From Hyphomicrobiales bacterium (GTDB lineage Bacteria > Pseudomonadota > Alphaproteobacteria > Rhizobiales > Aestuariivirgaceae), in contig JANYHE010000124.1 of the NCBI GenBank assembly GCA_025359215.1, forward strand, positions 1 to 54,773: a stretch of DNA of 54,773 nt. The letters run 5' to 3'. The notes beneath the pieces were generated by a model. The model was not told the DNA's origin and ran no database searches. It was given only the letters and a program-made list of their open reading frames with translations. Below, piece after piece: positions 33,842 to 54,773 of the stretch (position 1 is the first letter of the stretch; the number at the start of each line of letters is the position of its first letter). A program made the position numbers and the translations under genes.

Positions 33842-35317
33842 ATGTCTTTACGGAAAATTGTGACCGGATTGGCTCTTGCAGGAGTCGCAACATGCGGACT
33901 TGCTGCTTCGGCCTTTGCTGGAGAATTTGATGGTGTAACCGTCAACATCCTAACACGTCCAGGCCCTGTTATTGCTGGCCCGCTCAAATCACGTGGTGTT
34001 GATTTTGAAAAAGCAACAGGCGCCAAAATTGTCGTTACTGAAGTTCCATTCGCGGAAATTTTCCCGAAGGTGCAGAATGACTGGTCCACAGGCACAAACT
34101 CAATCGACGCAGCGGTTTTCGCTGCTGGTTGGGGTGTTGAATTAGACTCCGCCGGCCTTCTCGAAGATCTCGATCCTTATGTAGCCAAAGACACCAAGAT
34201 CGATACTGCCGATATCGCTCCCTATTTCCGCGATTTCGGAATGAAGATTGGCGGCAAATTCAAGCTTATACAGCTCGATGGCGACTTCCAAATGGTTTAC
34301 TATCGCAAGGACGTGCTTGAAAAAGCTGGCCTGCAACCACCTAAGACTTGGGAAGACTATATTGCTGTCGCCAAAGCCATAAATGGCCAAGACATGAACG
34401 GAGACGGCAAACCAGACTATGGTTCTTGCATTTTCAAGAAACGCAATGCCCAGTCTTATTTTGCCATCCAAACAATCGCAGCACCCATCGTGCAAACTCA
34501 AGGCACTGCGCAAGGCTTCCACTTTGATAACGCTACAATGAAGCCCATCATCAACAATGATGGTTGGAAGAAAGCCTTTGAACTCTACAAGGAAACCACA
34601 AAATATGGTCCGCCTGAAGAGTTGAACATGGACATCGGCGACACCCGTGGCCTGTTCAAGGATGGTCGCTGTGGCCTGCTTATCGAATGGGGCGATCCTG
34701 GCACATTGCAGCTCGATCCTGATGCAGCCAAAGTCAAAAACTTGATTTTTGCTGTTGGCGCAGTGGGCTCCAAAGAAGTGTTGGACCGCAAAACTGGCAA
34801 GCTGGTTCCCGTGTCTAAGGAAAGCGCTCCTTTCGCAGTTGATGGCATAAATTATGCGCCATTCTCGGCCTTCGGTGGCTGGGCTGGTGCGATTAATGCG
34901 AAGGCTGACCAAAAGAAGAAGGATGCAGCTTATGCATTCCTGTCTTACATGAATCAGTCTGCGCAATCGAGCGTCGATGTCACCATCGGTGCAACGGGCT
35001 ATAACCCTTACCGTCTGTCGCAGCTCAAGAGCACAGACTTCTGGGTGAAGGCGGGCATGTCGGAAGACCTGGCCAAAAACTATATGGGTGCCATTAACGG
35101 AGCCATCAATAATCCAAACATGGCTTCGGATATGAAAATCCCGGGCGCTCAGAAGTATACATCAGTGGTCCTGGATACAGAACTCGCTCGCTATATGGCT
35201 GGCGAAATCACTGTTGATGAAGCGTTGAAGAATATTGAAGCGGGCTGGGAAAAAGTTACCGATGATTTCGGCCGTGACAGCCAAATTGCCGCTCAAGCTT
35301 TGGCACTTGGAAAATAG
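33842..35317 (+). CDS. ABC transporter sugar-binding protein, CUT1 (system 1)
   Basis: A 491-residue periplasmic binding protein of family 1. It has a signal peptide (LALAGVATCGLAASAFA), then a mature region with TGAKIVVTEVPFAEIFPKVQ, YYRKDVLEKAGLQPPKTWED, NMDIGDTRGLFKDGRCGLLI and the C-terminal FSAFGGWAGAINAKAD and DAAYAFLSYMNQS. GGGAGGATACAATT precedes the ATG. A 172-bp gap after the reductase gene may contain its own promoter. It is followed by two permeases and an ATPase, a complete importer. The neighbouring enzymes point to a sugar acid or its oligomer as substrate (inference). Confidence 0.92.
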   Translation: MSLRKIVTGLALAGVATCGLAASAFAGEFDGVTVNILTRPGPVIAGPLKSRGVDFEKATGAKIVVTEVPFAEIFPKVQNDWSTGTNSIDAAVFAAGWGVELDSAGLLEDLDPYVAKDTKIDTADIAPYFRDFGMKIGGKFKLIQLDGDFQMVYYRKDVLEKAGLQPPKTWEDYIAVAKAINGQDMNGDGKPDYGSCIFKKRNAQSYFAIQTIAAPIVQTQGTAQGFHFDNATMKPIINNDGWKKAFELYKETTKYGPPEELNMDIGDTRGLFKDGRCGLLIEWGDPGTLQLDPDAAKVKNLIFAVGAVGSKEVLDRKTGKLVPVSKESAPFAVDGINYAPFSAFGGWAGAINAKADQKKKDAAYAFLSYMNQSAQSSVDVTIGATGYNPYRLSQLKSTDFWVKAGMSEDLAKNYMGAINGAINNPNMASDMKIPGAQKYTSVVLDTELARYMAGEITVDEALKNIEAGWEKVTDDFGRDSQIAAQALALGK

Positions 35318-35328
35318 GCTCCAAAGCA

Positions 35329-36486
35329 ATGTCTCACGTTCGTGATGCAAACCAGCCGGGGGAAACCCCGGCTGGACTTACACCTCAGCAAAGTTGGGCA
35401 GAATGGATTGATCGTCATTCGCGCACATTTTTTATTGCGCCGGCCGTATCTCTGATTCTGATATTTGCTATATTCCCAACATTTTATTCCATTGTTTTCG
35501 CATTGAGCAGGGTGAAATTCTCGCCCACAGGTTTGAAATTCCGCTTCGTGTGGTTTGATAATTTTACGTCCGAATTCACCGGCAGCGAACAAGATCATTT
35601 TCTCGGCCGCCTTGAGGGTATGAGTATTTTTGGTTGGCTGTTTTTTGTTGCAATGATTGGTGCAGTGCTGTGGTGGCTTTATCGTTCTAAACAAAATGGG
35701 TCGTCATGGATCGGTATGATCGGGCGATTGATTTCTGCTTCCATGGCCCTGTTTGTGGCTTATTTGCTCAGCAACACTTTGTTTTCCGGCCATCAATGGG
35801 GCACACTGCTGACCACGCTTTTTTATGTGATTGTGGGCTGCACTTTGCAGTTCATAATCGGAACGGGTTTGGCGTTTCTCTGTTCGCAACCGATTTCTGG
35901 CAAGAACTTTTTCCGTGTTCTGTTTTTCATTCCTTTGATGATCACCCCACTGGGCGTTGGTTATGCCTTCAAAATGGTGCTCGACATCACTAAAGGTCCA
36001 CTGCAGCCTTTGTGGGATGCTATTGGATGGCAAAATTGGGCATGGTCCACCGATGCTTGGGCGGCGCGCTGGTTTGTCATCGTTGGCGATTCTTGGCAGT
36101 GGATTCCATTCATCTTCATCATCATGCTGGCAGCCCTTGAAAACGTTCCGCGCGATCATGTTGAAGCCGCACAAGTCGATGGGGCTTCCAGCATCCAGAT
36201 TTTCCGTGAAATCACGTGGCCACAAATTGTGCCAGTCGCTGTGACGGTGATTTTAATCCGCATGATTGAAGCTTTCAAGATCGTCGATCTCCCAAACATC
36301 ATGACATCGGGCGGCCCCGGCATTGCCACTGAATCGATGACCTTGCATTCCTATTTCGTTTGGCGTGCTAACGACATGGGATCATCAGCAGCAGTGGCTT
36401 ATCTGCTGCTCATCTTGTCGGTAGTCGTGTGTTCGTCATTTTTCAACTACGTGGTTCTCGGTCAATTGCGGAAGGCCCACAAATGA
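35329..36486 (+). CDS. ABC transporter permease, MalF-type (system 1)
   Basis: A 385-residue inner-membrane permease with a proline-rich cytoplasmic start and about seven or eight helices. The EAA loop that docks on the ATPase is VEAAQVDGASSIQIFREITWP (first 20 residues canonical EAA..DGA pattern), near residue 285. An additional helical segment near 100-140 (FGWLFFVAMIGAVLWWLY and SMALFVAYLLSN) precedes the conserved core, as in larger MalF-like proteins. It starts 11 bases after the binding-protein gene and overlaps the next permease by four bases. Confidence 0.92.
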   Translation: MSHVRDANQPGETPAGLTPQQSWAEWIDRHSRTFFIAPAVSLILIFAIFPTFYSIVFALSRVKFSPTGLKFRFVWFDNFTSEFTGSEQDHFLGRLEGMSIFGWLFFVAMIGAVLWWLYRSKQNGSSWIGMIGRLISASMALFVAYLLSNTLFSGHQWGTLLTTLFYVIVGCTLQFIIGTGLAFLCSQPISGKNFFRVLFFIPLMITPLGVGYAFKMVLDITKGPLQPLWDAIGWQNWAWSTDAWAARWFVIVGDSWQWIPFIFIIMLAALENVPRDHVEAAQVDGASSIQIFREITWPQIVPVAVTVILIRMIEAFKIVDLPNIMTSGGPGIATESMTLHSYFVWRANDMGSSAAVAYLLLILSVVVCSSFFNYVVLGQLRKAHK

Positions 36487-37667
36487 GCGACACGTCCTTT
36501 AAATTTGAGAAATCAAACCGCGGCCTGATGGAACGGCTGTTTGAGGCACCTGCGATTGGCAAGATGTCTCCAGTTGCAAAAATTGTTGCTTATAGCATTT
36601 TGATATTCTGGTCGGTCTATGTGATTTTCCCAATCTATTGGGTGGTGATCACCGCATTCAAAGATGCAACAACCGTAAACGGCGGACCATTTTATATTCC
36701 CTTTGTCGATTTTCAGCCCAATCTAGATGCATGGCGCACCATGCTCTCGGCTGATCCATTTTGCGATGGCTATGCCATTTTCAGGCAATTTGGCTTGCTT
36801 GCGTATAATGCCTTCGCATTTGTAGTCTCGCCCGTGGTGAGATTAGCGCCCATGGAGCCACAGATTTGCAAAGTCTATCTGGCCTTTACCAACTCTGTTG
36901 TCATCGGGCTCGTTTCAACACTTCTCTGCGTCACCATTGGCAGCATGGCCGCTTATGCATTAGCGCGCATCGAATACAAACCAAAGTTTGGCAACATTGT
37001 TATGTTCGTAATTTTAACGCTGATGGTGATCTTGGTCACAAGCTATGTCGGCATCCGGTGGTATGTAACGTCCGCCATTGCGTTGGCGTTGTTCTTTCTT
37101 CTGGCGCGCAGTTTTGGCAAACGCTTCACCGCAAAGCTCGGCAATAACGATATTCTGTTTTGGATTATTTCCCAGCGCATCTTACCGCCAATCGTGGTGA
37201 TCATTCCGGTTTATATGATGTTCCAAGCCGTCAGCTTGCTGGACACGCATTTGGGCCTGATCATCATTTATGCGGTTGCCAACTTGCCCATTGTGGTGTG
37301 GTTGATGCATGATTTCTTTGCGGGGCTTCCCATTGAACTGGAAGAATCCGCCCAGCTGGATGGTGCCACCCGCTTTGGAATTTTTTGGGATATTGTTCTG
37401 CCACTCACACGGCCTGGTCTTGCAGCGGTGACGTTGCTTACTTTGATTTTGAACTGGAACGAATATCTTTTCGCCGTCTTTCTCACCACATCAAAGGCCA
37501 TCACCATGCCGATTATGGTTGCCGCAAAAAATGCCGGCGAACGTGGCACGCTGTGGTGGGAGATGTGTGCGGTCATCGTGGTGATGATTATTCCGGTGAT
37601 TTTAGCTGCAATTGTCCTGCAAAGATTTATAGCCAAGGGCGTGCTCCTTGGCGCTGTCAAAGGTTAA
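36483..37667 (+). CDS. ABC transporter permease, MalG-type (system 1)
   Basis: A 394-residue permease, long for MalG types (about 280). It has the conserved VIFPIYWVVITAFKDATT start and an EAA loop EESAQLDGATRFGIFWDIVL near residue 285. Extra sequence between the first helix and the core adds hydrophobic stretches (NIVMFVILTLMVILVTSYV and SAIALALFFLLARSF), so the core is split by an insertion. The ATG overlaps the stop of the previous gene (ATGA). Confidence 0.9.
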   Translation: MSDTSFKFEKSNRGLMERLFEAPAIGKMSPVAKIVAYSILIFWSVYVIFPIYWVVITAFKDATTVNGGPFYIPFVDFQPNLDAWRTMLSADPFCDGYAIFRQFGLLAYNAFAFVVSPVVRLAPMEPQICKVYLAFTNSVVIGLVSTLLCVTIGSMAAYALARIEYKPKFGNIVMFVILTLMVILVTSYVGIRWYVTSAIALALFFLLARSFGKRFTAKLGNNDILFWIISQRILPPIVVIIPVYMMFQAVSLLDTHLGLIIIYAVANLPIVVWLMHDFFAGLPIELEESAQLDGATRFGIFWDIVLPLTRPGLAAVTLLTLILNWNEYLFAVFLTTSKAITMPIMVAAKNAGERGTLWWEMCAVIVVMIIPVILAAIVLQRFIAKGVLLGAVKG

Positions 37668-37672
37668 AGCTC

Positions 37673-38743
37673 ATGTTGAATCAAAAGCCCGGTGTTCCTG
37701 TCTCCTTTGACAAAGTGCAAAAGTCATATGGCGCAGTGCGCGTGCTTGAAGAATTAAATCTTCAAGTGGAGCCCGGTGAGTTCTTGGTTTTGCTTGGTGC
37801 TTCCGGCTCTGGCAAAACCACAGCTTTACGAATTTTATCGGGTTTGGAAACGGCAACAGAAGGCAGGGTGCGCATCGGCGACCGCGATGTGACAGATGTT
37901 TTGCCAAAATATCGTGATATCTCCATGGTGTTTCAATCCTATGCGCTTTACCCGCACAAAACAGTGGGTGAAAACATTGGCTTCCCGCTTAAAGTGCGCA
38001 AAGTTAACCCCGTCGAACGCGAAGTGGCCGTGCGGGAAGCAGCGGCACAGGTGCAGCTCGATCAATTGCTGCATCGTTATCCCCGCGAACTATCTGGCGG
38101 GCAACGCCAACGCGTGGCCTTGGCGCGAGCCATTATTCGCAGGCCATCAGTGTTTTTGATGGATGAGCCATTGTCCAATCTCGATGCCAAGTTGCGCGGC
38201 CACATGCGCGCTGAGCTCAAACACATGCAGCAATCATTGGGCATAACAACCATCTATGTGACCCACGATCAGATTGAAGCCATGACACTGGCACACCGCG
38301 TTGCCATTCTTGAGAAGGGCGTGTTGCAGCAGCTTGATGCCCCTGCCAAAATTTATAATGATCCGGCAAACTTGTTTGTGGCCCAGTTCATCGGGTCCCC
38401 ACCCATGAATATTGTGAAGGGTTCACTTGAGGGTTCAAACTTTCTCGTTCAAGATACGAAGCTGGCTGTGCCCATGAAAGGCAAAGTGGAAAAAGCTGTG
38501 CTGGGTGTGAGGCCAGAAGATTGCACCATCACCACTGCTGCTAAGGGCTCTCTCAAAGGTACAGTCTATACAACTGAACTTATTGGTGATCACACACTAG
38601 TCACCATGAAAATCGCAAATGATTTTCTCACTGTCAAAGCCTCGAAAGATTATGTGGCGCATTCAGGTGAAGTGGTTGGCGTGACCTTTGCCAAAGGCCA
38701 GCTTTTCGTGTTTGATTCGAGCGATGGCAAGCGCATTCGCTAA
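37673..38743 (+). CDS. ABC transporter ATPase, UgpC/MsmK-like (system 1)
   Basis: A 356-residue CUT1 ATPase with every catalytic element intact: Walker A GASGSGKTT, Q-loop MVFQSYALYP, signature LSGGQRQRVALARA, Walker B VFLMDEPLSNLD and switch VTHDQIEAMT. A C-terminal TOBE domain follows (LGVRPEDCTI near 282). It should work as a homodimer with the two preceding permeases. I start at ATG 37673, five bases after the permease stop; in-frame codons further upstream belong to the permease's other frame. Its 3' end overlaps the convergent permease gene by four bases. Confidence 0.95.
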   Translation: MLNQKPGVPVSFDKVQKSYGAVRVLEELNLQVEPGEFLVLLGASGSGKTTALRILSGLETATEGRVRIGDRDVTDVLPKYRDISMVFQSYALYPHKTVGENIGFPLKVRKVNPVEREVAVREAAAQVQLDQLLHRYPRELSGGQRQRVALARAIIRRPSVFLMDEPLSNLDAKLRGHMRAELKHMQQSLGITTIYVTHDQIEAMTLAHRVAILEKGVLQQLDAPAKIYNDPANLFVAQFIGSPPMNIVKGSLEGSNFLVQDTKLAVPMKGKVEKAVLGVRPEDCTITTAAKGSLKGTVYTTELIGDHTLVTMKIANDFLTVKASKDYVAHSGEVVGVTFAKGQLFVFDSSDGKRIR

Positions 38744-39636
38744 AAATTTTTTCTGCCAAACTGTTTTGAAAATACACCAGCTAAAACACGGCGTGCAAAA
38801 ATTGTGAACACCAAAACCGGCAATGCCATCAAAACAGTTGCCGCTGCCAAATGTGCCACTTCCTCTGCGCCGCCGCCCGTTTGTGCTTCCTTCATAGAAA
38901 GTTGACCCACCATCCAAGGTGGCAGCGTTAAGGCGTGATCAGACGTGAGATATGATGCAAACAGGTACTCATTCCAACATTGCAAAAAAACCAAAATCCC
39001 CACTGTGATCAAAGCGGTTTTTATTGCGGGCAATAAGATGAAAAAGAAGATGTGGAAATGGGAAGCACCATCAAGCATTGCGGCCTCTTCTTGATCGGTG
39101 GCGCGAGGGCCAAAAACGGGCGCCAACATCCAAACAACAAGTGGCAGATTTATAGCTGCGTAGATAAAAATCAAAATGCCTAACGTGTCAAACGTGCCGG
39201 TTTTTTGCGCCAAAAAATAGAGAGGCAAGGCCATAACAGCGGGTGGTAAAATGCGGGTGCTCAGAATTGCAGCCATGATGTTTGGTTCGCGGGATTGAGC
39301 GGTAAATCGGGTTAATCCATAAACCAGCATTCCGCCAATCAACAGAGTTACCAATGTTGAGCTGAGCCCAATTATGATTGAATTGAAAGCCCGTGAAACC
39401 AAATTTTCAGAAATATCAGAGAGAATAAATCGCCACGCATCAAGCGAGGGCATGAAATCTAAAAATGGCAAATAGGTTGGGGCCTTATCGATGATGCTCA
39501 CATCTTTGAACGATGTGATAGCAATCCAGTAAATTGGCAAAAAGCAAATGAAAGACCAAACCCCCAAGATGATATAAACAATCGCCCGGTTCGCTCGATC
39601 GAATGCAGGGCGTCCTCTTTGAGTATCCATGTTCAT
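38740..39636 (-). CDS. Orphan MalG-type ABC permease
   Basis: A 298-residue six-helix permease with PIYWIAITSFKDVSIIDKAP at the start and EAAMLDGASHFHIFFFILLP as the EAA loop (near 197). Its size and core are those of a normal MalG protein and it looks functional. No binding protein, MalF-type partner or ATPase is encoded beside it on this strand. It overlaps the hydrolase gene upstream by four bases, so the two form an operon. It may serve as an alternative permease with one of the flanking transporters, or be the remainder of a third importer. Confidence 0.9.
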   Translation of the reverse strand: MNMDTQRGRPAFDRANRAIVYIILGVWSFICFLPIYWIAITSFKDVSIIDKAPTYLPFLDFMPSLDAWRFILSDISENLVSRAFNSIIIGLSSTLVTLLIGGMLVYGLTRFTAQSREPNIMAAILSTRILPPAVMALPLYFLAQKTGTFDTLGILIFIYAAINLPLVVWMLAPVFGPRATDQEEAAMLDGASHFHIFFFILLPAIKTALITVGILVFLQCWNEYLFASYLTSDHALTLPPWMVGQLSMKEAQTGGGAEEVAHLAAATVLMALPVLVFTIFARRVLAGVFSKQFGRKNF

Positions 39637-41427: not shown

Positions 41428-42519
41428 GTGACAACGCAAAATAAAATCGCATTGTCTATTTCTGGTGTATCAAAATCCTATGGCCGCGTGCGCGCGCTCG
41501 AAAATCTTTCCTTCGATGTTGCTGAAGGTCGTTTCTTTGTTCTTTTCGGGCCAAGCTCAGTTGGCAAAACGACAACGCTGCGCACGATTGCAGGCCTTGT
41601 AAAACCGGATTCAGGCCGGATTGAAATTGGCGGCCGTGATTTCACCAGCGAGCCGATCCTTGGCCGTGGCGTGTCGATGGTGTTTCAATCTTTTGCACTC
41701 TATCCGCACCTCACAGTTTTCGAAAATTTAGCCTATCCCTTGCGTGAAGAAAAATTGCCTTCGGCTGAAATAAAGAAGCGCGTTGAAGAAACCGCTGCCA
41801 TGTTGAAACTGTCCCACCGGTTAGAACGTAAACCCAGCACGCTTTCCGGCGGTGAGCAACAGCGGGTTGCTCTTGGCCGCTCACTCATCAGGCACCCAAA
41901 AATTCTATTGTTGGATGAGCCATTGACCAATCTTGATGCCAAGCTGCGGCACGATATGCGGGCAGAATTAAAGCGCCTGCATCGCCAATTTGGCATGACG
42001 ATTGTTTATGCAACGCCCGATGAACTTGAGGCCCTTTCAATGGGCGAAGAAATTGCGGTGATGCGCGATGGCACCGTGGTGCAACGCGGCACACCAGACG
42101 AACTTTATGGGCAACCCAAAAACACTTATGTGGCCGGTAAGATTGGTTCGCCGCACATGAACATGGTTCCGGCAACTGTTACTGTTGACGCTAAATCTTT
42201 CGACACATCATTGGGCATGATTTCCCCCAAGGTTAAGCGCAAAACAGCCACAGCCGGCGAAGCAGCCATAATCGGCATCAGGCCAAGTGATATTCGCTTG
42301 GCGGCCAAGGGCGAGAAATCTATTTCTTCGAAAGTTCATTTAATCGAGCCCTTGGGCGACATCACTATAGTTTCGGTTGCTGCTGGCAACGAGATGCTGC
42401 GCATGGTGCTGCCTGAGTCCAAGGCCACATCCATCAAGGTTGGCGATGCCGCCGCCATTGTTATCAATCAAGACGATATTCACATCTTCCGCGCTGCCAG
42501 TGGGCAGGCCATGGCCTAA
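41428..42519 (+). CDS. ABC ATPase with degenerate switch histidine (system 2, NBD1)
   Basis: A 363-residue CUT1-type ATPase. Walker A is GPSSVGKTT (41-49), Q-loop Gln 87, signature LSGGEQQRVALGRS (139-152) and Walker B ILLLDEPLTNLD with Asp163-Glu164. The switch region is YATPDELEAL, so the catalytic switch histidine of the usual VTHDQ is replaced by Pro197. A TOBE domain follows (IIGIRPSDIRL near 287). It starts at GTG with GGAG upstream. A second ATPase lies in the same operon (46089-47177) with the opposite defect, so the pair probably forms a heterodimer. Two-ATPase CUT1 systems include rhizobial GlpST. Confidence 0.88.
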   Translation: MTTQNKIALSISGVSKSYGRVRALENLSFDVAEGRFFVLFGPSSVGKTTTLRTIAGLVKPDSGRIEIGGRDFTSEPILGRGVSMVFQSFALYPHLTVFENLAYPLREEKLPSAEIKKRVEETAAMLKLSHRLERKPSTLSGGEQQRVALGRSLIRHPKILLLDEPLTNLDAKLRHDMRAELKRLHRQFGMTIVYATPDELEALSMGEEIAVMRDGTVVQRGTPDELYGQPKNTYVAGKIGSPHMNMVPATVTVDAKSFDTSLGMISPKVKRKTATAGEAAIIGIRPSDIRLAAKGEKSISSKVHLIEPLGDITIVSVAAGNEMLRMVLPESKATSIKVGDAAAIVINQDDIHIFRAASGQAMA

Positions 42520-42566
42520 CACCGACAGCGAGAAGCAAGCCGTTAAACATTGGGAGTGAACCGAAA

Positions 42567-44000
42567 ATGAAGTACAAGACCAGACTGAAAAGTTTTGCGA
42601 CTGCCCTTAGCTTCGTAAGCTTGATGACCGTTGGTGGTGCCATAAAGGCATCTGCCGAAGATGTGGTTCTCCACATGGCTGTGCCAGATTGGCCGCCGAC
42701 ACGCATCATGAAAGATATGTTCGATAGAGAATATAAGCCAGCTTCGGGCAATAAAGTGACGCTCGACGTTGATTTCATTCCTTGGCCAGATTTCTACACG
42801 CGTGTGAACGCGTCGCTGACCTCGGGCGAAAAAAAATACAACATGGCCGTCTCGGATTCGCAGTGGCTTGGCGCTTTTATTGAAGGCGGCTACTTCCGCA
42901 AGATCAACGATTTGATCGATGCTGATCCGGATTTGAAGAAGGCCATGGATGGCATGCATCCTAAAATTCTTAACGCCTATTCAACCTATCCAAACAGCAC
43001 AGCCAATTATTATGGATTTCCGCAATTTCCAGACATTCTTGTGAGCTATGCCCGCAAAGATATTTTCTGCAATGATGAAGAGCAGAAGAACTTCAAAGCG
43101 AAATACAATAAAAAGCTTCCCTGCACCGGCGAAGAATTCGATGATGTAGACTGGGAACTCTTCGGCAATATCGGTGAATTCTTCATGCGCAAAAAAGGTG
43201 ATATGCTCGCCGGTAAACCTGCGGATGATGATTTTTATGGCGTCGGCTTCCAAGTTGGCAAGGGCTATGATTTTTCGACCTCTTCGGTCAATAGCTTCAT
43301 CTGGCAAGCCGGTGGTGACATCTGGGATGAAACTAAAGCACCCGATGGGCATGCTGAAGGCCAAGTCAACTCTGACGTCGCCGTCAAAGCCCTCGACCAT
43401 ATGCTGAGCTTCATCAAGTATATGCCACCCGTGGCCAAAACGGGCACAATGGACATCTTCAAAACTGATGAATTGTTCCGTGCGGGCAAGATCGCCTTAA
43501 ATGTGGACTGGGTTGGTTTGGGTGAAGCATCGCTTGATCCTAAAACTTCTCAGGTTGCAGATAAGTTGGTCTTCGGCATGGCGCCTGGAACGCGGGGCGC
43601 TGATGGCAAGCTCAACCGCACCAGCCAGATCGGCGGACAACCCTTTGTTCTCACCACGTGGAACACAGACATCATCAACAAGGAAGCAGTTGGCTTCGTA
43701 AAGTGGTGGTTGTCAAAGGATGTTCAAACTGAATATGCCTCTAAAGGCGGTCAGTCTGCCATCAAAGATGTCTACAGCGATCCAAAATATAGCACCTATC
43801 GTCCTTGGAACCGGACGTGGGCTTCAAGCCTCGATTACCAAAAAGATATGTGGCACGTGCCTCAGTTCTATGACCTCCTCACCCAGCAGCAAGATCAATA
43901 TGATCTCGCAATCACGGGCAAGCAGGATGCCAAAACGACTTTGGACAACGTGGCCAAATATCAAGAAAATCTGCTGAAGGAAGCTGGCCTAATTAAGTAA
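42567..44000 (+). CDS. ABC transporter substrate-binding protein (system 2)
   Basis: A 477-residue periplasmic binding protein with signal peptide ending GGAIKASAED. The mature part has DWPPTRIMKDMFDREYKP, VSDSQWLGAFIEGGYFRKI, VNSFIWQAGGDIWDETKA and VGFVKWWLSKDVQTEYASKG, a family 1 layout, larger than typical maltose-binding types. The paired cysteines in FCNDEEQ and LPCTGEE could form a disulfide. GGGAGTGAACC precedes the ATG. A strong hairpin follows the stop. Substrate unknown. Family 1 membership is clear, but it is divergent from the system 1 binding protein. Confidence 0.88.
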   Translation: MKYKTRLKSFATALSFVSLMTVGGAIKASAEDVVLHMAVPDWPPTRIMKDMFDREYKPASGNKVTLDVDFIPWPDFYTRVNASLTSGEKKYNMAVSDSQWLGAFIEGGYFRKINDLIDADPDLKKAMDGMHPKILNAYSTYPNSTANYYGFPQFPDILVSYARKDIFCNDEEQKNFKAKYNKKLPCTGEEFDDVDWELFGNIGEFFMRKKGDMLAGKPADDDFYGVGFQVGKGYDFSTSSVNSFIWQAGGDIWDETKAPDGHAEGQVNSDVAVKALDHMLSFIKYMPPVAKTGTMDIFKTDELFRAGKIALNVDWVGLGEASLDPKTSQVADKLVFGMAPGTRGADGKLNRTSQIGGQPFVLTTWNTDIINKEAVGFVKWWLSKDVQTEYASKGGQSAIKDVYSDPKYSTYRPWNRTWASSLDYQKDMWHVPQFYDLLTQQQDQYDLAITGKQDAKTTLDNVAKYQENLLKEAGLIK

Positions 44001-44016
44001 CCAGTTATTGTAACGT

Positions 44017-44050
44017 GAGGCGTGTGAGCCAAGGCTTGCGCGCCTCTTTT
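44017..44050 (+). terminator. Attenuating hairpin after the system 2 binding protein
   Basis: GAGGCG (44017-44022) pairs with CGCCTC (44041-44046); the stem continues through four wobble or GC pairs to AGCC/GGCT (44027-44030, 44033-44036), and TTTT follows. It lies between the binding-protein gene and its permeases, a place where partial termination gives the binding protein higher expression. Confidence 0.7.
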
Positions 44051-44077
44051 GGCAGCTCAAAAAGCAGAATATATCAA

Positions 44078-45139
44078 ATGACCACGACCGCGATACAAAC
44101 CCCACCAACAGCCTTCACGACTTTGGCACTCGACAATTGGAAGCTCGCAATTGCGGGAGGTCTTGGTGTTTCGATTTCGGCGTGTTTGGCCATGCCAGCA
44201 ACCAGCTCTTTCTGGGTGGTTGCCGTGATGATGGCGTTGGTCGCGGTGACGTTTGTGGTCAACGCCTTTCGTCGCCATTATTATGGCGGACTTTTGGTTT
44301 CGCCAGCCATCGCTGTTCTGTTCGTGATGAACATTTTCCCCCTCTTATGGTCGCTTGGCCTTTCATTCTTTTCTTATCAGAGCAACCAGCAGGCTATCCG
44401 CTTTGTGGGCCTCGCCAATTACAGCAAACTTCTAACTGACGATCTCAAGGCCCCCGAACTTTGGGCCAATCTCACCAACACCGCCATGTTTACGGTGTTG
44501 ACAGTTTCGGTGCAAATGGTGATCGGCTTCCTGTTGGCTGTTTTGTTCGCCAAGCAATTTCCGCTACGGCGCTACTTGCTCATTCTTGTGCTCACACCTA
44601 TGATGCTTTCGGTTGTGGCCGTTGGTGTGTTCTTTTCTTACTACTATGACCCCACATTTGGCGTGATCAGTCAGATCATCAAGGCTTGGACGGGAGAACA
44701 ATTCATTCTGTTCTCCAGCAAGGCAGGCGCAGTGGCAGGCATTGTGTTCGCGGACGCTTGGATGTGGTCCCCCTTTGTGATGTTGTTGGTGCTGGCCGGG
44801 CTCGTATCCGTTCCGACTTATCTTTACGAGGCCGCAGCCATTGACCGCGTGGGCTCTTGGCGGCGCTTTTGGACCATCACATTTCCTTATATTCGCGGAC
44901 TATTGATGTTAGCCCTTTTGTTCCGAACCATTGAAGCTTTCAAAATGGCAGATCTCATCATTCTTCTCACCAAAGGTGGCAATGACACCATGACGATTTC
45001 TTATCATGTGATCCGCATTGCCAATGAGCAAAACAAAACCAGTGAAGGTGCGGCACTGTCATACTTGCTGTTGTTTGTGGTTATCGTGCTCACAAATCTC
45101 TATCTTTATATTGCCAACCGTCGCAGCCAAGGAAACTGA
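44078..45139 (+). CDS. ABC transporter permease, MalF-type (system 2)
   Basis: A 353-residue permease with two extra N-terminal helices (about 25-70) before the conserved core: MNIFPLLWSLGLSFFSYQ, TVSVQMVIGFLLAVLFAKQF and MMLSVVAVGVFFSYYYDPTF. The ATPase-docking loop is EAAAIDRVGSWRRFWTITFP (near 255), where the usual DGA is DRVG, a departure in this conserved loop. That may match the unusual ATPase pair. I use ATG 44078; an in-frame start at 44015 would lie within the hairpin. Confidence 0.9.
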   Translation: MTTTAIQTPPTAFTTLALDNWKLAIAGGLGVSISACLAMPATSSFWVVAVMMALVAVTFVVNAFRRHYYGGLLVSPAIAVLFVMNIFPLLWSLGLSFFSYQSNQQAIRFVGLANYSKLLTDDLKAPELWANLTNTAMFTVLTVSVQMVIGFLLAVLFAKQFPLRRYLLILVLTPMMLSVVAVGVFFSYYYDPTFGVISQIIKAWTGEQFILFSSKAGAVAGIVFADAWMWSPFVMLLVLAGLVSVPTYLYEAAAIDRVGSWRRFWTITFPYIRGLLMLALLFRTIEAFKMADLIILLTKGGNDTMTISYHVIRIANEQNKTSEGAALSYLLLFVVIVLTNLYLYIANRRSQGN

Positions 45140-45142
45140 ACA

Positions 45143-46087
45143 ATGGCCACTTCAATGACCATCTGGGAAAAACTGGGCTTCCGCAAAGCATCGCGGGTGG
45201 GTGAGGCTGGCTGGGGGCACACGCTGTGGGCAGCACTCGTAAGTTTCATTTATTTTCTGCCGGTGTTGATCATCGTGATCACATCATTCAAAGTGCAAAA
45301 TGAAGCTCTTTCAGTGCCGGCGAAATTCTTCCCAACATCGTTTTTTGGATTGATACCGGAGCAATATGTTTTCACGCCAACGCTGGAAAACTTCACATCG
45401 GTTTTTTCCCGCGCCTTCACCACAGGCGGAGCAGTGGAGAACACGGGGTTTGATCGATATTTCTTCAACTCAATGTTCATTGCTGGAACATCAGTATTAT
45501 TGGCCTTAGTGATTGGAACTTTGGCGGCCTATGGCTTTTCGCGCTATCCCCTAAAAGGCAATGACACTTATCTATTCATAATTCTCACAACCCGCATGTT
45601 ACCGGCCATTGTGGTGATCATTCCCATCATCCTTATGTTCCGCATTGTTGGCCTCTCAGGGTCTTATCCCGGCATCATATTTCTCTACACGGCCTTCAAT
45701 CTCCCCTTCACAATATGGATGATGAAGAGCTTCTTCGATGAACTATCTCTAGATGTTGAAGATGCCGCCCGCATTGATGGGTCATCCGAGCTGCGGGTGT
45801 TTTTCAAAGTGTGCTTGCCGCAAGTGGTGGCAGGGCTTGCTGCAACTTTTGTATTCGGGCTTATCCTCACCTGGAATGAGTTTCTTTTCGCACTTTTGTT
45901 GACTGGATCCGACACACGCACAGTGCCTGTTGCCATGAACCAAGCCGTTGCAGGCGGCGGCATTGGCGTGCTCTGGGGACTGTTGGCCGCAATTGAAACT
46001 CTTTTTCTCATCCCCGTTTTTCTCGTCACGTTTTTCTTGCAAAATCATTTGCTGCGGGGTGTCACTTTTGGAACGGTAAAGCGCTGA
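45143..46087 (+). CDS. ABC transporter permease, MalG-type (system 2)
   Basis: A 314-residue six-helix permease. It has the start FLPVLIIVITSFKVQNEALS, LTTRMLPAIVVIIPIILMF in the middle, and a normal EAA loop (EDAARIDGSSELRVFFKVCL near 200), followed by LTWNEFLFALLLTGSDTRTV. It lies three bases after the MalF-type gene and one base before the second ATPase gene. Confidence 0.93.
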   Translation: MATSMTIWEKLGFRKASRVGEAGWGHTLWAALVSFIYFLPVLIIVITSFKVQNEALSVPAKFFPTSFFGLIPEQYVFTPTLENFTSVFSRAFTTGGAVENTGFDRYFFNSMFIAGTSVLLALVIGTLAAYGFSRYPLKGNDTYLFIILTTRMLPAIVVIIPIILMFRIVGLSGSYPGIIFLYTAFNLPFTIWMMKSFFDELSLDVEDAARIDGSSELRVFFKVCLPQVVAGLAATFVFGLILTWNEFLFALLLTGSDTRTVPVAMNQAVAGGGIGVLWGLLAAIETLFLIPVFLVTFFLQNHLLRGVTFGTVKR

Positions 46088-46088
46088 C

Positions 46089-47177
46089 ATGTCAACAATC
46101 GAAGTCAAAAAAATTACCAAGAAATTTGGCGAGTTTGTTGCAGTGAGAGATGCTGATCTTTCGGTGAAAGCAGGCGAAGTGGTTTGCCTGCTCGGCCCGT
46201 CAGGGTGTGGCAAGACCACAACATTACGCATGATTGCAGGCCTAGAGCGCGCCTCTGAAGGCGACATTGTGATAGCGGGAAAGCGCATGAATGAACTGCC
46301 ACCAGAAAAGCGCGACATTGCTATGGTGTTCCAGTTTTATGCACTCTACCCAGCACTGAATGTTGGCGAAAACATTGCCATGCCTCTGCACTTCGAAAAA
46401 CTGTCCACGGAGGAGAGAAACAAACGCATTAATAGTGTTGCAAAGATCCTCCATTTGACGGAAGTTTTAGACCGTATGCCGGGGCAAGTTTCTGAAGGTG
46501 AAAAGCAGCGAATTGCTGTGGCTCGGGCTATCGTGCGTGATCCCAACTGTTTCCTATTTGATGAACCCCTGTCACGTTTGGATGTGGAACTGCGCCATTC
46601 CATGCGCGGTCAAATTAAGGAAGTCCTCTCCAACCTTTCAAAAGCAACAGTGATCGTCACGCATGATCAGCTTGAAGCGCTCACCATGGCCGATCGCATC
46701 GCAATCATGAAAGATGGAATGATCGAACAAGTTGGCACCCCCCATGAGGTGTTTGCAAAGCCTGCCAACGTTTTTGTAGCGAGCTTCATCGGAACGCCGC
46801 AAATGAATTTGGTTGAAGCTGATCTCAAGTCGTTTGGCAAAGGAGTGGCCTCAATAATTTTGGGTGGCAGTGCTGTTGAAATGGCAGCAGACCCTGCTGT
46901 TTCAAAACTGAGGCCATCAAAAGTTATGATCGGCATCAGGCCGCGTGCCTTCACGGTGCAAGACAAGGCATCAAAAGATACCATTCACGCCCAATCTGAA
47001 TTGATCGAACCAATGGGGGCTGAAACCTTGGTTCACGCCCGCACCAAAACGGGTGCTGATATTCGTGTTGTTGTGCCGCGGGAAAAGCGCGTGAAAATTG
47101 GCGAAATTCTACACTTGAAACCTGATGCCAAACAGACACATTTTTTTGGTGAAGATGGAATGGCGGTGCGCACATGA
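46089..47177 (+). CDS. ABC ATPase with altered signature motif (system 2, NBD2)
   Basis: A 362-residue CUT1-type ATPase. Walker A GPSGCGKTT (36-44), Q-loop Gln82, Walker B CFLFDEPLSRLD with Asp158-Glu159, and the switch VTHDQLEAL with His192 are all normal. The ABC signature reads VSEGEKQRIAVARA (134-147): Glu136 replaces the first glycine of LSGGQ. So this protein keeps the catalytic histidine that its partner (41428-42519) lacks, and lacks the signature its partner keeps. A TOBE domain follows (MIGIRPRAFTV near 280). It overlaps the next gene by four bases. Confidence 0.9.
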   Translation: MSTIEVKKITKKFGEFVAVRDADLSVKAGEVVCLLGPSGCGKTTTLRMIAGLERASEGDIVIAGKRMNELPPEKRDIAMVFQFYALYPALNVGENIAMPLHFEKLSTEERNKRINSVAKILHLTEVLDRMPGQVSEGEKQRIAVARAIVRDPNCFLFDEPLSRLDVELRHSMRGQIKEVLSNLSKATVIVTHDQLEALTMADRIAIMKDGMIEQVGTPHEVFAKPANVFVASFIGTPQMNLVEADLKSFGKGVASIILGGSAVEMAADPAVSKLRPSKVMIGIRPRAFTVQDKASKDTIHAQSELIEPMGAETLVHARTKTGADIRVVVPREKRVKIGEILHLKPDAKQTHFFGEDGMAVRT

Positions 47178-47614
47178 GTGAACCCACAACCGGCATGTCT
47201 GCGAAGACGGCTCTGCGCCTTGAAATGTTCATCATAGGGCTTGGGCTTTTGGCCTTGGTTCTTATTTTCCAACCTTTCAGCATCACATTGTTTGCCATTG
47301 GCAGCGGTGTCGTGGTGCTTGCAGGTCTTGTGAATAATTTATTGCCTTTGGCCCAGCCCGGTGTGGCCCCGCGCTCGGTCTTCGTTGTGCTTCTGGTTGT
47401 TGCTATGATTTTTTGCATCGTCTTGTTGGTTTCGATTAGTGCGGCCCATCTTTATGGCGTGTTTTTTTTGAAGCCACCTGATCCCAATACAGTTGTTGGC
47501 AAAGCGGCTTTGGCGGCATTGCCTTTTTATATGCATCCCTTCGTGTGGTCGCTCGCCGTTGCGGCTGCAGGTTTGGCTGCAGTTATCACTTACATGAATA
47601 GGTCCAGCACCTAA
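47174..47614 (+). CDS. Four-helix membrane protein of unknown function (system 2)
   Basis: A 146-residue protein with four hydrophobic helices (about 18-36, 38-58, 68-92, 118-140) and no motif I recognise. Its start overlaps the ATPase stop by four bases, so it is coupled to the transporter. Rhizobial two-ATPase importers of the glycerol (Glp) type also include a small membrane protein (DUF2160), which gives a positional parallel, but I see no clear sequence match. It could be an accessory importer subunit. Confidence 0.65.
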   Translation: MSEPTTGMSAKTALRLEMFIIGLGLLALVLIFQPFSITLFAIGSGVVVLAGLVNNLLPLAQPGVAPRSVFVVLLVVAMIFCIVLLVSISAAHLYGVFFLKPPDPNTVVGKAALAALPFYMHPFVWSLAVAAAGLAAVITYMNRSST

Positions 47615-48464: not shown

Positions 48465-49313
48465 ATGAAGTTCGGTTTTAACCTCTTACTTTGGACGGGT
48501 CACGTCACTCTTGAGCACACTAGCTTGATCCGCAAGATCAAAGCCGCTGGCTATGATGCTGTTGAAATTCCCATATTCGAAGGCACTCCAGACCATTATG
48601 CGCGGCTGGGCGATCTGTTGGACAAAGTGGGTTTAGAACGAACGGTTGTGAGCGTGATGGGTGCTGGCAAAAATCCTCTCGCAGCAGATATCGCAGAACA
48701 AAAAGCAGCATTGGACTACGCGAAATGGTTTGTTGATTGCTCCGCAGCGCTGGGTGCGCCAATTCTGGCAGGCCCCATGCATTCCCAATTGGGCTACTTC
48801 ACTGGCGTTGGCGCCACCAAGAAAGAAATCAAGCGAGGCGTGAGCTTTCATCGCCGCATCGGTGACTATGCTGCCAAGAAAAATGTGAGATTTGCTTTGG
48901 AGGCATTGAACCGCTTCGAATGCTATTTCCTCAACACCATGGAACAGCTGGCTGATTATTTGGATGAGGTGAATCATCCGGCCATCAAAGGCATGTATGA
49001 CTCCTTTCACAGCAACATCGAAGAGAAGGATCCTGTGGGTGCCATAAAGGCCATTAAGCGCCATCTCATCCATGTTCACATTTCTGAAAATGATCGAGGC
49101 ACGCCAGGCAAAGGCCATGTGCCATGGGATGCCACTTACGCGGCCTTGAGAAAGGTACGTTATGATGGATATTGCACCATTGAGGCGTTTGGCCGTTCCC
49201 TTCCAGCACTTGCTGCTGCCACCCGCGTGTGGCGCGATTTTGCTCCCAGTCCTGACGAAGTCTATCTTGAGGGCCTGAAGCACATGAAGCGGGGTTGGGC
49301 CAAATCTAAATGA
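48465..49313 (+). CDS. TIM-barrel sugar epimerase/isomerase, D-tagatose 3-epimerase-like
   Basis: A 282-residue TIM barrel of the xylose-isomerase-like/AP endonuclease 2 superfamily. Segments match the D-tagatose/D-psicose 3-epimerase branch: FALEALNRFECYFLNT (catalytic Glu and metal ligand), MYDSFHSNIEEKDP (metal Asp), HVHISENDRGTPGKGHVPW (metal His) and the last glutamate in CTIEAFGR. These enzymes interconvert keto sugars at C3 through a divalent metal. I start at ATG 48465 with GACGAGG before it. The stop overlaps the Tm-1-like gene by four bases, linking them closely. Confidence 0.86.
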   Translation: MKFGFNLLLWTGHVTLEHTSLIRKIKAAGYDAVEIPIFEGTPDHYARLGDLLDKVGLERTVVSVMGAGKNPLAADIAEQKAALDYAKWFVDCSAALGAPILAGPMHSQLGYFTGVGATKKEIKRGVSFHRRIGDYAAKKNVRFALEALNRFECYFLNTMEQLADYLDEVNHPAIKGMYDSFHSNIEEKDPVGAIKAIKRHLIHVHISENDRGTPGKGHVPWDATYAALRKVRYDGYCTIEAFGRSLPALAAATRVWRDFAPSPDEVYLEGLKHMKRGWAKSK

Positions 49314-50518
49314 GCCACTCGGGCGGTAGAGTCTACGTCATTGGAACTTGCGATACCAAAGGCGAAGAACTGAGATTTGCCTGTGAATGCTTGGCCGCAA
49401 CGGGTGTGGCGGTGGCCCTCGTCGATGTTTCCACGGCCTTGCCGGTTACCTATGCTGATATTTCAGCACCCGAAGTTGCAGCTTTTCATCCCGAAGGTGC
49501 AAACGCTGTGCTGGGCCTCAAAGATCGTGGCCAAGCTGTTTCGGCCATGAGTGTTGCACTCAGGCACTTTTTGCTGGCGCAGCACGATGTGGCAGGGGTG
49601 CTTGGCATGGGTGGATCAGGAAACACTACCCTTGTAACCACGGCCATGAAAGCCTTGCCTATTGGTGTTCCCAAAGTGATGCTCTCCACATTGGCATCAG
49701 GCAATGTGGCTGGCTTTGTGGGACCATCAGATATCATTATGATGCCAGCCATTGTCGATGTGGCTGGACTAAATGCCATCAGCCGAAAAATTATCAGCAA
49801 TGCCGCTCATGCCGTGGCAGGCATGGTGCGCTACAAGCGTGACGTGTCATCTGCAAGTGGCACTGCCATAGGCATGACCATGTTTGGTGTTACCACGTCT
49901 TGCATTACCGAAATTCGCAAAGGCTTGGAACCAGGCCATGAATGTTTTGTTTTTCATGCCACGGGCACAGGCGGGCAAAGCTTTGAAAAACTGGCCGAGT
50001 CGGGATTCTTTAAAGGCGTTTTTGATATCACCACAACAGAAGTGGCGGACTATCTGTTTGGCGGCATATTGCCGTGCACCGAAGATCGGTTTGGCGCATT
50101 CATTCGAAACGCCATTCCCTATGTCGGTTCCGTCGGTGCTGTTGATATGATCAATTTTGGCGCTGCAGCGACAGTGCCCACAAAATTTTCTGGACGGAAA
50201 AGTTTGGCGCACAACGAGCACGTAACACTGGTTCGAACAACTTCAGATGAAAATCGAATGATTGGCGAATTCATTGTGGCCCGCTTGAATCAGATGAAGG
50301 GACCCGTTCGTTTCTTGCTGCCCTTGAAAGGTGTTTCAGCACTTGATGCGCAAGGCCAACCGTTTCATGATCATGCAGCAGACACAGCTTTGTTTGATGC
50401 TATTCGTCGAGGCTGGAAAACGCAGGTAAACCATAAACTTCTAGAAATTGATTGCCACATCAATGATGTTTTATGTGCCAAGGCGGCACTAAAAGCATTC
50501 AACGAAATCATAGAGTGA
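49310..50518 (+). CDS. Tm-1-like ATP-binding domain protein (UPF0261)
   Basis: A 402-residue member of UPF0261 (PF06792), homologous to the N-terminal half of tomato Tm-1, a protein that blocks tobamovirus replication. Visible motifs are VYVIGTCDTKGEELRFACEC, GVLGMGGSGNTTLVTTAM, KVMLSTLASGNVAGFVGPSD, FGVTTSCITEIRKGLEPGHE and FHATGTGGQSFEKLAESGF. The bacterial reaction is unknown. It overlaps the epimerase gene and is six bases before the gene for the Tm-1 C-terminal half, so the two probably act together. Confidence 0.9.
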   Translation: MSHSGGRVYVIGTCDTKGEELRFACECLAATGVAVALVDVSTALPVTYADISAPEVAAFHPEGANAVLGLKDRGQAVSAMSVALRHFLLAQHDVAGVLGMGGSGNTTLVTTAMKALPIGVPKVMLSTLASGNVAGFVGPSDIIMMPAIVDVAGLNAISRKIISNAAHAVAGMVRYKRDVSSASGTAIGMTMFGVTTSCITEIRKGLEPGHECFVFHATGTGGQSFEKLAESGFFKGVFDITTTEVADYLFGGILPCTEDRFGAFIRNAIPYVGSVGAVDMINFGAAATVPTKFSGRKSLAHNEHVTLVRTTSDENRMIGEFIVARLNQMKGPVRFLLPLKGVSALDAQGQPFHDHAADTALFDAIRRGWKTQVNHKLLEIDCHINDVLCAKAALKAFNEIIE

Positions 50519-50524
50519 GAACAG

Positions 50525-51355
50525 ATGCCTCGCATTGAACGCAGTATTTTACTCAAAAAATTCCGCAGCATGGTTGCAGCAAAGGAACCGATTATCGGTG
50601 GTGGTGCGGGCACTGGCCTTTCGGCCAAATGTGAAGAGCAGGGCGGCATAGACTTGATCGTCATTTATAATTCGGGGCGATATCGCATGGCGGGTAGGGG
50701 CTCGCTGGCTGGAATATTGGCCTATGGCAATGCCAATGACATTGTGAAGGAAATGGGCCGAGAGGTTTTGCCTGTCGTCAAAAACGTTCCCGTTCTTGCC
50801 GGTGTCAATGGCACAGATCCCTTCATGATCGCAGATTTGTTGTTAGATGAACTCATCGCCATGGGCTTTTCCGGTGTACAGAATTTCCCTACTGTTGGAT
50901 TGATTGACGGCAACTTTCGAAAAAATCTCGAAGAAACGGGCATGGGCTATGGCCTTGAGGTTGAACTAATCAAGAAGGCCAATGCCAAAGACTTGTTGAC
51001 TACGCCCTATGTATTTAACGCCAATGAGGCGCATGAAATGACCAAGGCCGGGGCCGATATTATCGTGGCTCACATGGGGCTGACCACTGGCGGCACCATT
51101 GGTGCCGACACAGCCATGCAGCTAGCCGACTGCCCCAAAGTAATTTCAGAAATTGCTGAAGCCGCGCGCGCCGTCCGCGAAGATATAATTGTGCTCTGCC
51201 ATGGTGGGCCGATTTCTTCACCTGTAGATGCAGAATTTATTTTGAAAAACACGCCCGGTATTCATGGGTTTTATGGCGCAAGCTCGATGGAACGATTACC
51301 GGTGGAAAGTGCCCTCACTGAGCAGACGCGAAAGTTCAAACACATAAAATTCTAG
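50525..51355 (+). CDS. PF09370 TIM-barrel protein (phosphoenolpyruvate hydrolase family; Tm-1 C-terminal-like)
   Basis: A 276-residue TIM barrel corresponding to the C-terminal half of Tm-1 (PF09370, annotated as PEP hydrolase family). Family segments are [80 protein letters not shown] and [13 protein letters not shown]. No enzymatic assignment is certain despite the family name. It is adjacent to the Tm-1 N-terminal-like gene and in the same order as in the plant fusion protein, and precedes the SRPBCC gene by ten bases. Confidence 0.9.
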
Positions 51356-53350: not shown

Positions 53351-54493
53351 TCAGCTTTTTGCGCTTTCCCATTGTCCATTGCGGGCAGATTTCAGCACGG
53401 CGTCCGTCACCAAATCCGTGGCCATCGCTTCACGGAATGTGGGAGCAGCTGAAATTCCACTGCCAAGGCCCTCGATAAAGTCAGCGGCTTGGTGAACAAA
53501 TGAATGTTCATAACCAATTTGCAAGCCAGGAACCCACCACTTGCTCATATAGGGGTGATCACCATCGGTCACATGGATAGACCGCCAACCCCGGCTACGA
53601 CCTTCATCTCGGTGGTCAAAATATTGCAGGCGATGCAGATCGTGCAAATCCCAAAAGATCGACGCATTCTCACCATTGATTTCGAGTGTGTAGAGGGCCT
53701 TGTGGCCGCGCGCATAACGCGTGGCCTCGAAATTGCCCAGCGACCCATTATCATAACGCGCCAGAAACAAGCTGGCGTCATCGATTTCAACTTTTTCAGT
53801 TTTGCCTGTTAGGTTGTGGTGGCGTTCTTTGATGAAGGTCTCTGTCATACCGACCACTTTATCGATGCCGCCATTCAGCCACAGCGATGTGTCGATGCAA
53901 TGCGCCAGCAAATCACCAGTCACGCCAGAACCAGCCATGCCAGCATCAAGCCGCCACAGGCCTTGGCCGCCTTGTGGTAGGTCTGCTGAAATTGTCCAAT
54001 CCTGTAAAAACTTCGCACGGTAGTGAAAGATTTTCCCGAGTTTGCCCTCGTCGATGAATTGTTTGGCGAGCGTGACGGCGGGGATCCGACGATAATTATA
54101 CCAGACCATATTGGCCACCTTGGCCGTTTCGACGGCCTCCACCATTTTGCGGCTTTCAGTGGAATTTCTGCCCAACGGCTTTTCGCACATAATCATTTTG
54201 CCAGCTGCGGCTGCGGCAATGGCTATCTCCATGTGCATGTCGTTTGATGCTGCAATATCAATCAAATCAATATCTTTGCGCTCAATCAGTTTGCGCCAGT
54301 CTGTCTCGGTCGACTGATAGCCCCATTGATCGGCAAAGGCCTTCAGCTTTTCTGCGTTACGGGCGCAAGCGGCCTTGAGCACTGGTTGAAAAGGCAGATC
54401 GAAAAAATGGGGGGCTTGAGAAAAGGCGTTAGAGTGAGCACGCCCCATAAAACCGTAACCCACCATGCCAATGTTTAAAGGTTTCTTGGCCAT
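53351..54493 (-). CDS. Gfo/Idh/MocA family oxidoreductase
   Basis: A 380-residue NAD(P)-dependent sugar oxidoreductase. The cofactor loop is [19 protein letters not shown]; the conserved CEKPLGRN motif lies near residue 95. The C-terminal domain ([14 protein letters not shown] near 235) is typical of the inositol dehydrogenase/glucose-fructose oxidoreductase group. I use ATG 54493, which starts one base after the upstream stop; an in-frame start 18 bases earlier has no support. It belongs to the minus-strand group with the SDR and RhaM genes and a partial gene at the window edge. Confidence 0.88.
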
Positions 54494-54494
54494 A

Positions 54495-54773
54495 TCACGC
54501 CACCCAACCATGCTTGTCGCGCACTTTTATCATGGTGGCGAGAATGTCGTTCCACGTTTTTTGCTGCACCATAACGTCGTTGGGGAACATGCAACCATCC
54601 CAACAAATGTGGTGAAAAGCCTTTGTCAGCCCGCCGTCTTTTCCGCGCATCCACAGGCCTGCATGTTTGGGGATATCAAGTTTGCCGTTTTTATCAGTCA
54701 CCATGCAGTGGCGGCCCGTCTTTTCATGATAACCGAGACCTTTAACGGTGCCATCATTCTGCGCCACATGAAA
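54495..54773 (-). CDS. Unrecognised protein, C-terminal part, cut by the window edge
   Basis: The frame is open from the window end (54773) to the TGA at 54497-54495, giving about 92 residues of a C-terminus ([17 protein letters not shown]; ending RDKHGWVA). No family is certain. The end spans the Gfo gene start by a single base, so it is the upstream member of the same operon. It is rich in Trp, Cys and His ([18 protein letters not shown]), and could be an enzyme with a metal site, but this is only suggestive. Confidence 0.55.

Follow-up and report, generated by a model that had tools for sequence, protein, structure and literature searches.

The importer operon described here, from a 54,773-nucleotide contig of a Hyphomicrobiales bacterium (JANYHE010000124.1, assembly GCA_025359215.1; the whole stretch is called the window below), very probably encodes a CUT1 (type I) importer that depends on a binding protein and is driven by an obligate ATPase heterodimer, in which one ATP site is canonical and the other degenerate. 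The operon specifies two ATP-binding cassette (ABC) ATPases, named here for their nucleotide-binding domains NBD1 and NBD2, a solute-binding protein (SBP) and two permeases with transmembrane domains, TMD1 and TMD2. As expected of a CUT1 importer, the SBP is accompanied by two BPD_transp_1 permeases and by ATPases with a C-terminal OB/TOBE domain. CUT1 importers usually employ one ATPase twice. That usual trait is not found here, as NBD1 and NBD2 are 37-38% identical. A sequence-only reading had proposed an asymmetric heterodimer, and conservation, gene order and site-specific constraint lend this core good support; the accompanying claims of novelty, of a link to the permease EAA loop and of likeness to TM287/288 proved wrong or overstated.

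Complementary motif changes and their conservation

Both ATPases match the Pfam families ABC_tran, OB_MalK and TOBE_2, the OB_MalK score of NBD2 (25.4 bits) lying below the cut-off of 27, and the top NCBIfam profile for both is UgpC, at 347.8 bits for NBD1 and 389.3 bits for NBD2, under the cut-off of 432. NBD1 carries the Walker A motif GPSSVGKTT, the Walker B motif LLLDEP and the D-loop TNLD, and the corresponding motifs of NBD2 are GPSGCGKTT, FLFDEP and SRLD. The two defects first noticed were borne out when we read the proteins again. NBD1 has an intact LSGGE signature and a proline, Pro197, at the position of the H-loop (switch) histidine of MalK, while NBD2 retains the switch histidine, His192 (codon at 46662), and has a broken signature, VSEGE.

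For NBD1 orthologues we took the best 80 of 487 related loci from a scan with one genome per species, in which NBD1 identity ranged from 47 to 90%; 66 of these loci reach NBD2 and the remaining 14 stop before it. Proline occupies the H-loop position in 80/80, within the motif TPD[EQ]LEAL, and SGGE is intact in all 80. The first glycine of the NBD2 signature is replaced in 66/66, by glutamate in 65 ([SA]EGE) and by aspartate in one (SDGE), and THDQ is present throughout. By match coordinates the gene order NBD1-SBP-TMD1-TMD2-NBD2 also holds in 66/66, a coarser script giving the exact order for 62. A second count assigned families by best BLAST reference, independently of both motifs, and recovered proline with SGG in all 84 distinct NBD1 cores and histidine with SEG, AEG or SDG in all 68 distinct NBD2 cores. 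Because the changes are this uniform across NBD1 and NBD2 orthologues, both are fixed and old, rather than recent mutations, local decay or sequencing errors. By record title the 80 loci are mostly alphaproteobacterial, with three from Gammaproteobacteria (L064, L083, L087). The operon also occurs under the titles Actinobacteria metagenome-assembled genome (MAG; L010), Mycobacterium sp. KBS0706 (L035) and Blastopirellula MAG (L053), with NBD1 identities of 90%, 69% and 64%, and these records are probably binning or naming errors, or cases of transfer.

The NBD1/NBD2 importer is uncommon. Of 23 MalK-type ATPase matches in its own genome we read 22, and 18 of these have an SGG signature together with the histidine. 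The other four, NBD1, NBD2, GlpS and GlpT, make up two complementary pairs in two operons. In a class-level sample of 289 genomes (NBD1 match cut-off E <= 1e-100) five genomes matched, its own included, with proline in all four others. A phylum-level sample of 299 genomes (E <= 1e-85) gave 12 matching genomes and the proline form in two only, its own and G683; in the other ten, one match read each, the ATPase is of the ordinary MalK type, with the histidine. Outside the NBD1 family, the closest ATPases of the phylum sample (43-45% identical) carry both motifs in the 10 matches that we read out of 11.

Each ATP site of an ABC dimer is built from the Walker A and B motifs and the A-, Q- and H-loops of one subunit together with the signature of the other (PMC7756269, in the part available). 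If NBD1 and NBD2 pair, constraint should therefore track the site and not the protein. With a heterodimer assumed, the changes in both partners fall on one composite site and the other site has the consensus. We calculated column entropies as mean bits per motif over the 84 NBD1 and 68 NBD2 distinct cores. For the canonical site they are 0.00 at Walker A, Walker B and the histidine of NBD2 and 0.09 at the NBD1 signature, and for the degenerate site 0.27 and 0.17 at Walker A and Walker B of NBD1 and 0.51 at the NBD2 signature. The NBD background is 0.70-0.74, and the motif values were nearly the same before near-duplicate loci were removed. The proline of NBD1 is invariant. Conservation tracks the heterodimeric composite sites and not the individual proteins.

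We propose that NBD1 and NBD2 would form a heterodimer in which each ATPase has a fixed pairing with a permease. In the canonical site LSGGE of NBD1 would face Walker A/B, the Q-loop and His192 of NBD2; in the degenerate site [SA]EGE of NBD2 would face Walker A/B of NBD1, where Pro197 stands in for the histidine. The heterodimer would most likely bind two ATP and hydrolyse one per cycle, at the NBD2-Walker/NBD1-signature site. The ATP at the degenerate site, which retains a Walker A lysine and a Walker B glutamate, would most likely be held, hardly cleaved, and serve as a persistent clamp.

Table 1. Coordinates of the importer genes and of the diagnostic motifs within the window
Feature	Position	Strand	Basis
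NBD1, MalK/UgpC-type ATPase, 363 aa; LSGGE signature intact, switch His absent (Pro197)	41428..42519	+	open reading frame (ORF), Pfam, NCBIfam, alignment
NBD1 signature LSGGE, intact; part of predicted canonical site	41842..41856	+	
Pro197 codon CCC at the NBD1 H-loop His position	42016..42018	+	
Solute-binding protein, SBP_bac_1	42567..44000	+	Pfam
TMD1, MalF-type permease, EAA loop LYEAAAIDRVGSWRRF	44015..45139	+	Pfam, BPD_transp_1
TMD2, MalG-type permease, EAA loop VEDAARIDGSSELRVF	45143..46087	+	Pfam, BPD_transp_1
NBD2, MalK/UgpC-type ATPase, 362 aa; switch His192 present, VSEGE signature	46089..47177	+	
NBD2 signature VSEGE, altered; part of predicted degenerate site	46488..46502	+	
Small hydrophobic ORF overlapping the NBD2 stop	47174..47614	+	

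Related two-ATPase importers

GlpST belongs to an ATP-driven glycerol importer of Rhizobium leguminosarum (PMC7912956, in the part available). The matching degeneracy had been put forward as the novelty of the window pair over GlpST, and this claim fails, as the GlpST system has the same complementary pattern in 26/26 GlpS/GlpT pairs. The pairs tabulated (15 + 11) include those of the own genome (L092) and of Rhizobium johnstonii 3841 pRL9 (L138). In every pair GlpS has threonine or serine for the switch histidine (ATTEP, ATSEP or STTEP) with LSGGQ intact, and in GlpT THDQ is kept and the signature is broken, reading L[TSG][AP]D. GlpSTPQUV thus resembles the window system in combining a pair of unlike MalK-type ATPases with two permeases and a single SBP, in having an intact signature on the His-less subunit and an intact histidine on the signature-less one, and in keeping the Walker A lysine and the Walker B glutamate in both ATPases. 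The two systems differ in the replacement of the histidine (threonine or serine in GlpS, proline in NBD1) and in the altered signature (L[TSG][AP]D in GlpT, [SA]EGE in NBD2). Moreover, the ATPase genes are adjacent in the glp operon, whereas they flank the permease genes in the window operon, and the small glp protein, DUF2160, lacks profile similarity to the small ORF of the window. A clade uniting the window permeases with GlpP/GlpQ is rejected by the approximately unbiased test (p-AU 1.7e-57 for the MalF type and 4e-5 for the MalG type). Judged from these motifs, the window pair and GlpST represent a recurring design and not a one-off. Among the literature matches listed we found no description of degenerate GlpS/GlpT or MalK-type pairs; a 2012 paper on R. 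leguminosarum glycerol transport may hold an earlier remark. The own genome holds a glpR-V-S-T-P-Q-like cluster, and in it (L092, 8321-9978) an intervening ORF is followed by another GlpP/GlpQ-like permease pair, which shares 45-46% identity with the first.

Class X (G000:C106 and relatives) is a further two-ATPase CUT1 system, and among the permeases sampled those of class X are most closely related to the window permeases. We read 30 of 39 matching genomes, plus the two loci L109 and L110. The histidine is present in every protein with a readable H-loop, 30/30 Xa and 28/28 Xb; of the two further Xb, one is truncated and one is missing at a contig end. The signatures of Xa (n=30) are SGG in 15, AGG in 12, SSG in two and SAG in one, and Xb has SGG in 29/29. 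Class X shares with the window system its two different ATPases and, in one permease read (L091), the DR variant of the EAA loop. It differs in that both ATPases keep the histidine and the signatures are mostly SGG or AGG (27/30 Xa), whereas the window pair has complementary defects.

Class Y comprises seven loci (1 + 6; L107 and L174-L179). Ya has aspartate in Walker B, and so has lost the catalytic glutamate, glutamine for the switch histidine, and the signature LSNGQ; Yb has glutamate in the Q-loop and in the D-loop (QLE), with THDQ and SGG intact. Considered as a third case of the same polarity, class Y does not quite fit, since the subunit without glutamate and histidine itself has the odd signature. 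In L107 an ORF that by eye resembles a sugar kinase follows. One locus, L122 (G017:C34:4000-13000), is a hybrid operon in which GlpS/GlpT-like ATPases stand beside permeases that score best against class X and not against GlpP/GlpQ. Two plasmid matches, H1 and H10, were set aside as candidates for further pairs, as each has a single ATPase with both motifs. Three of the four two-ATPase classes seen are asymmetric; these class frequencies derive from samples and best-match lists.

Evidence for and against the proposed heterodimer, and its descent

The proposed mechanism draws support from the fixation of both changes and the gene order across orthologues, from the site-wise entropies, from the presence of both motifs in the 18 other MalK-type ATPases read in the own genome and in the nearest ATPases outside the family, and from the like arrangement of GlpST. 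Several observations weigh against it. With the catalytic Walker B glutamate kept and Pro197 invariant, the degenerate site may have a retained function or residual activity. The D-loop, at 0.00 bits in both NBD1/NBD2 sites, does not discriminate between them. The canonical and degenerate sites of GlpS/GlpT differ in the same direction as those of the window family at Walker A (0.14 vs 0.55) and at the signature (0.00 vs 0.82), which speaks for the proposal; Walker B barely separates them (0.38 vs 0.40), and the D-loop is reversed (0.10 at the canonical site vs 0.00 at the degenerate one). In class X, where both ATPases are intact, signature entropy is 0.30 in one subunit and 0.10 in the other, and a moderate signature difference is therefore possible without degeneracy. 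The Walker A difference between NBD1 and NBD2 cannot be explained that way, given the class X values of 0.02 and 0.00. Class X also means that a two-ATPase CUT1 importer can be symmetric.

Retained residues also allow a reading in which both sites are functional, Pro197 and SEGE being tolerated, and the asymmetry is one of sequence and not of catalysis. We consider this improbable. The Walker B glutamate, the Walker A lysine and the EGEKQR stretch past the changed glycine are all kept, as it would lead one to expect, yet both changes lie on the same composite site, and the signature is changed at all degenerate human sites (PMC7756269, in the part available). A simulation study of MalFGK2 treats H192 and E159 as the catalytic residues (PMC8134467, in the part available), which also speaks against this reading. 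It is slightly harder still to credit that NBD1 and NBD2 serve different transporters as homodimers, or that one is a regulatory or relic ATPase, with unrelated defects, since their genes flank the same SBP-TMD1-TMD2 in 66/66 testable loci, either homodimer would be without a key motif at both sites and the conservation pattern fits composite heterodimer sites and not proteins, even though a single ATPase used twice is the usual CUT1 arrangement and the genome is rich in other MalK-type ATPases.

The origin of the asymmetry is a separate matter. In permease trees the window family groups with class X. The branch values are 100/98 (starred) in the MalF-type tree and 91/95 (unstarred) in the MalG-type one, and on the permease side separate losses in the window family and in GlpST are the favoured account. 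A branch of the ATPase tree (99/95) separates GlpS, Ya, NBD1 and Xb from NBD2, GlpT, Yb, Xa and the single-ATPase proteins. When GlpS with NBD1, or GlpT with NBD2, was constrained to a single clade, p-AU was 0.32 and 0.28, respectively, with 86 rows and 0.12 and 0.28 with 66 rows. Constraining NBD1 with Xb fits as well as the free tree, and NBD2 with Xa gave a p-AU of 0.09, short of rejection.

With confidence that falls a little short of even, we suggest that asymmetric ATPase pairs arose at least two times independently in proteobacterial CUT1 importers, in the window family, in GlpST and perhaps in class Y, and that a two-ATPase operon was the setting on every occasion. The polarity is the same in the window family and GlpST, with the histidine lost from one subunit and the intact signature from the other, and the predicted idle site keeps the Walker A lysine and the Walker B glutamate. 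A single ancient asymmetry common to GlpST and the window family, from which class X regained a symmetric pair, is possible but the less favoured account; it concerns the origin and not the mechanism. The 99/95 branch, which sets GlpS, Ya, NBD1 and Xb apart from the other ATPases, agrees with it, as do the GlpS+NBD1 and GlpT+NBD2 clades, which are compatible with the data, while the equally good fit of NBD1 with Xb does not. A clade of all two-ATPase permeases, which it would also lead one to expect, is compatible with the data for the MalF type (p-AU 0.28, not rejected) and rejected for the MalG type (p-AU 0.019). The window permeases join those of symmetric class X, their clade with the Glp permeases is rejected, and the substitute for the histidine differs (proline in NBD1, threonine or serine in GlpS, glutamine in Ya), all of which speak against one ancient event. 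The hybrid operon L122 suggests that ATPases and permeases may have been exchanged between systems, and the permease-based argument for separate losses is therefore weaker.

Permeases, neighbouring genes and other degenerate-site transporters

The EAA loop of TMD1 does have DRVG for DGA, as the sequence-only reading stated. DR is, however, the family norm (72/73 TMD1 rows, the remaining one gapped). Nor is it tied to the ATPase asymmetry, a link we ruled out because DR also occurs in class X beside ATPases that both keep the histidine.

The small hydrophobic ORF lies directly 3' of NBD2 in all 64 loci in which 500 bases or more follow that gene, and is a possible accessory subunit. Pfam and NCBIfam profile searches with it gave no match. 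Homology to GlpU/DUF2160 was looked for and not found (hhalign probability 0.3%); a DUF2160 small protein is present in the five plasmid glp operons examined.

A gene for a Gfo/Idh-type dehydrogenase (53351-54511, minus strand) has levoglucosan dehydrogenase as its best NCBIfam profile. A levoglucosan-dehydrogenase-like gene adjoins NBD1 upstream in 30/75 testable loci (e.g. L011-L017), and in the window it stands apart from NBD1. This neighbour may hint at the importer substrate; as the score is 330 bits against a cut-off of 650, we leave the substrate unassigned. At 49310-51355 a UPF0261 gene precedes a PF09370 (PEP-hydrolase-like) gene, and at a number of loci one of them or both are again found close to the importer; the tomato Tm-1 resistance protein combines these two families as its halves. 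On the opposite strand, a MalG-type permease gene (38740-39636, minus strand) lies beside a hydrolase gene and is without an adjacent MalF-type partner. It follows a distinct CUT1 operon (~33842-38743) with an ATPase in which the motifs are complete.

Heterodimeric or full-length transporters with a degenerate site share with the proposed heterodimer one canonical and one degenerate composite site, with deviations spread across both NBDs (PMC7756269, in the part available). TM287/288, TAP, CFTR and MRP1 are of this kind; they differ in being mostly exporters of another fold. In human transporters no degenerate site is without a signature change, and the Walker B glutamate comes second in frequency, often together with changes in the H-loop (PMC7756269, in the part available). 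NBD1 keeps this glutamate and has lost the histidine, and the idle site would therefore be built differently from human degenerate sites. The likeness to TM287/288 drawn earlier accordingly stands for the pairing of one canonical with one degenerate site and is otherwise loose. Among importers, RbsA and NupO of Bacillus subtilis (type II) also have one predicted degenerate ATP site; there, however, the two ATPase domains are fused in one chain, the defects lie in the signature and the Walker A lysine, and the importer type is another (PMC11466899, in the part available).

What is new here is a real, conserved NBD1/NBD2 variant; a CUT1 importer with a predicted degenerate ATP site is, as a kind, already known. 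Exporters and CFTR-type proteins account for nearly all of the degenerate-site literature that we found. If asymmetric pairs did arise independently as suggested above, maltose-type importers can work with one hydrolytic site, and bound, uncleaved ATP would be a selected feature of an importer subclass, of which we found no description in the literature searched. Annotation as 'UgpC' or 'ABC transporter ATP-binding protein' would then mask a mechanistic split. The degenerate-site importer families, set beside class X with its related permeases and two intact ATPases, would offer a natural comparison within the MalFGK2 fold for the role of a non-hydrolysing site.

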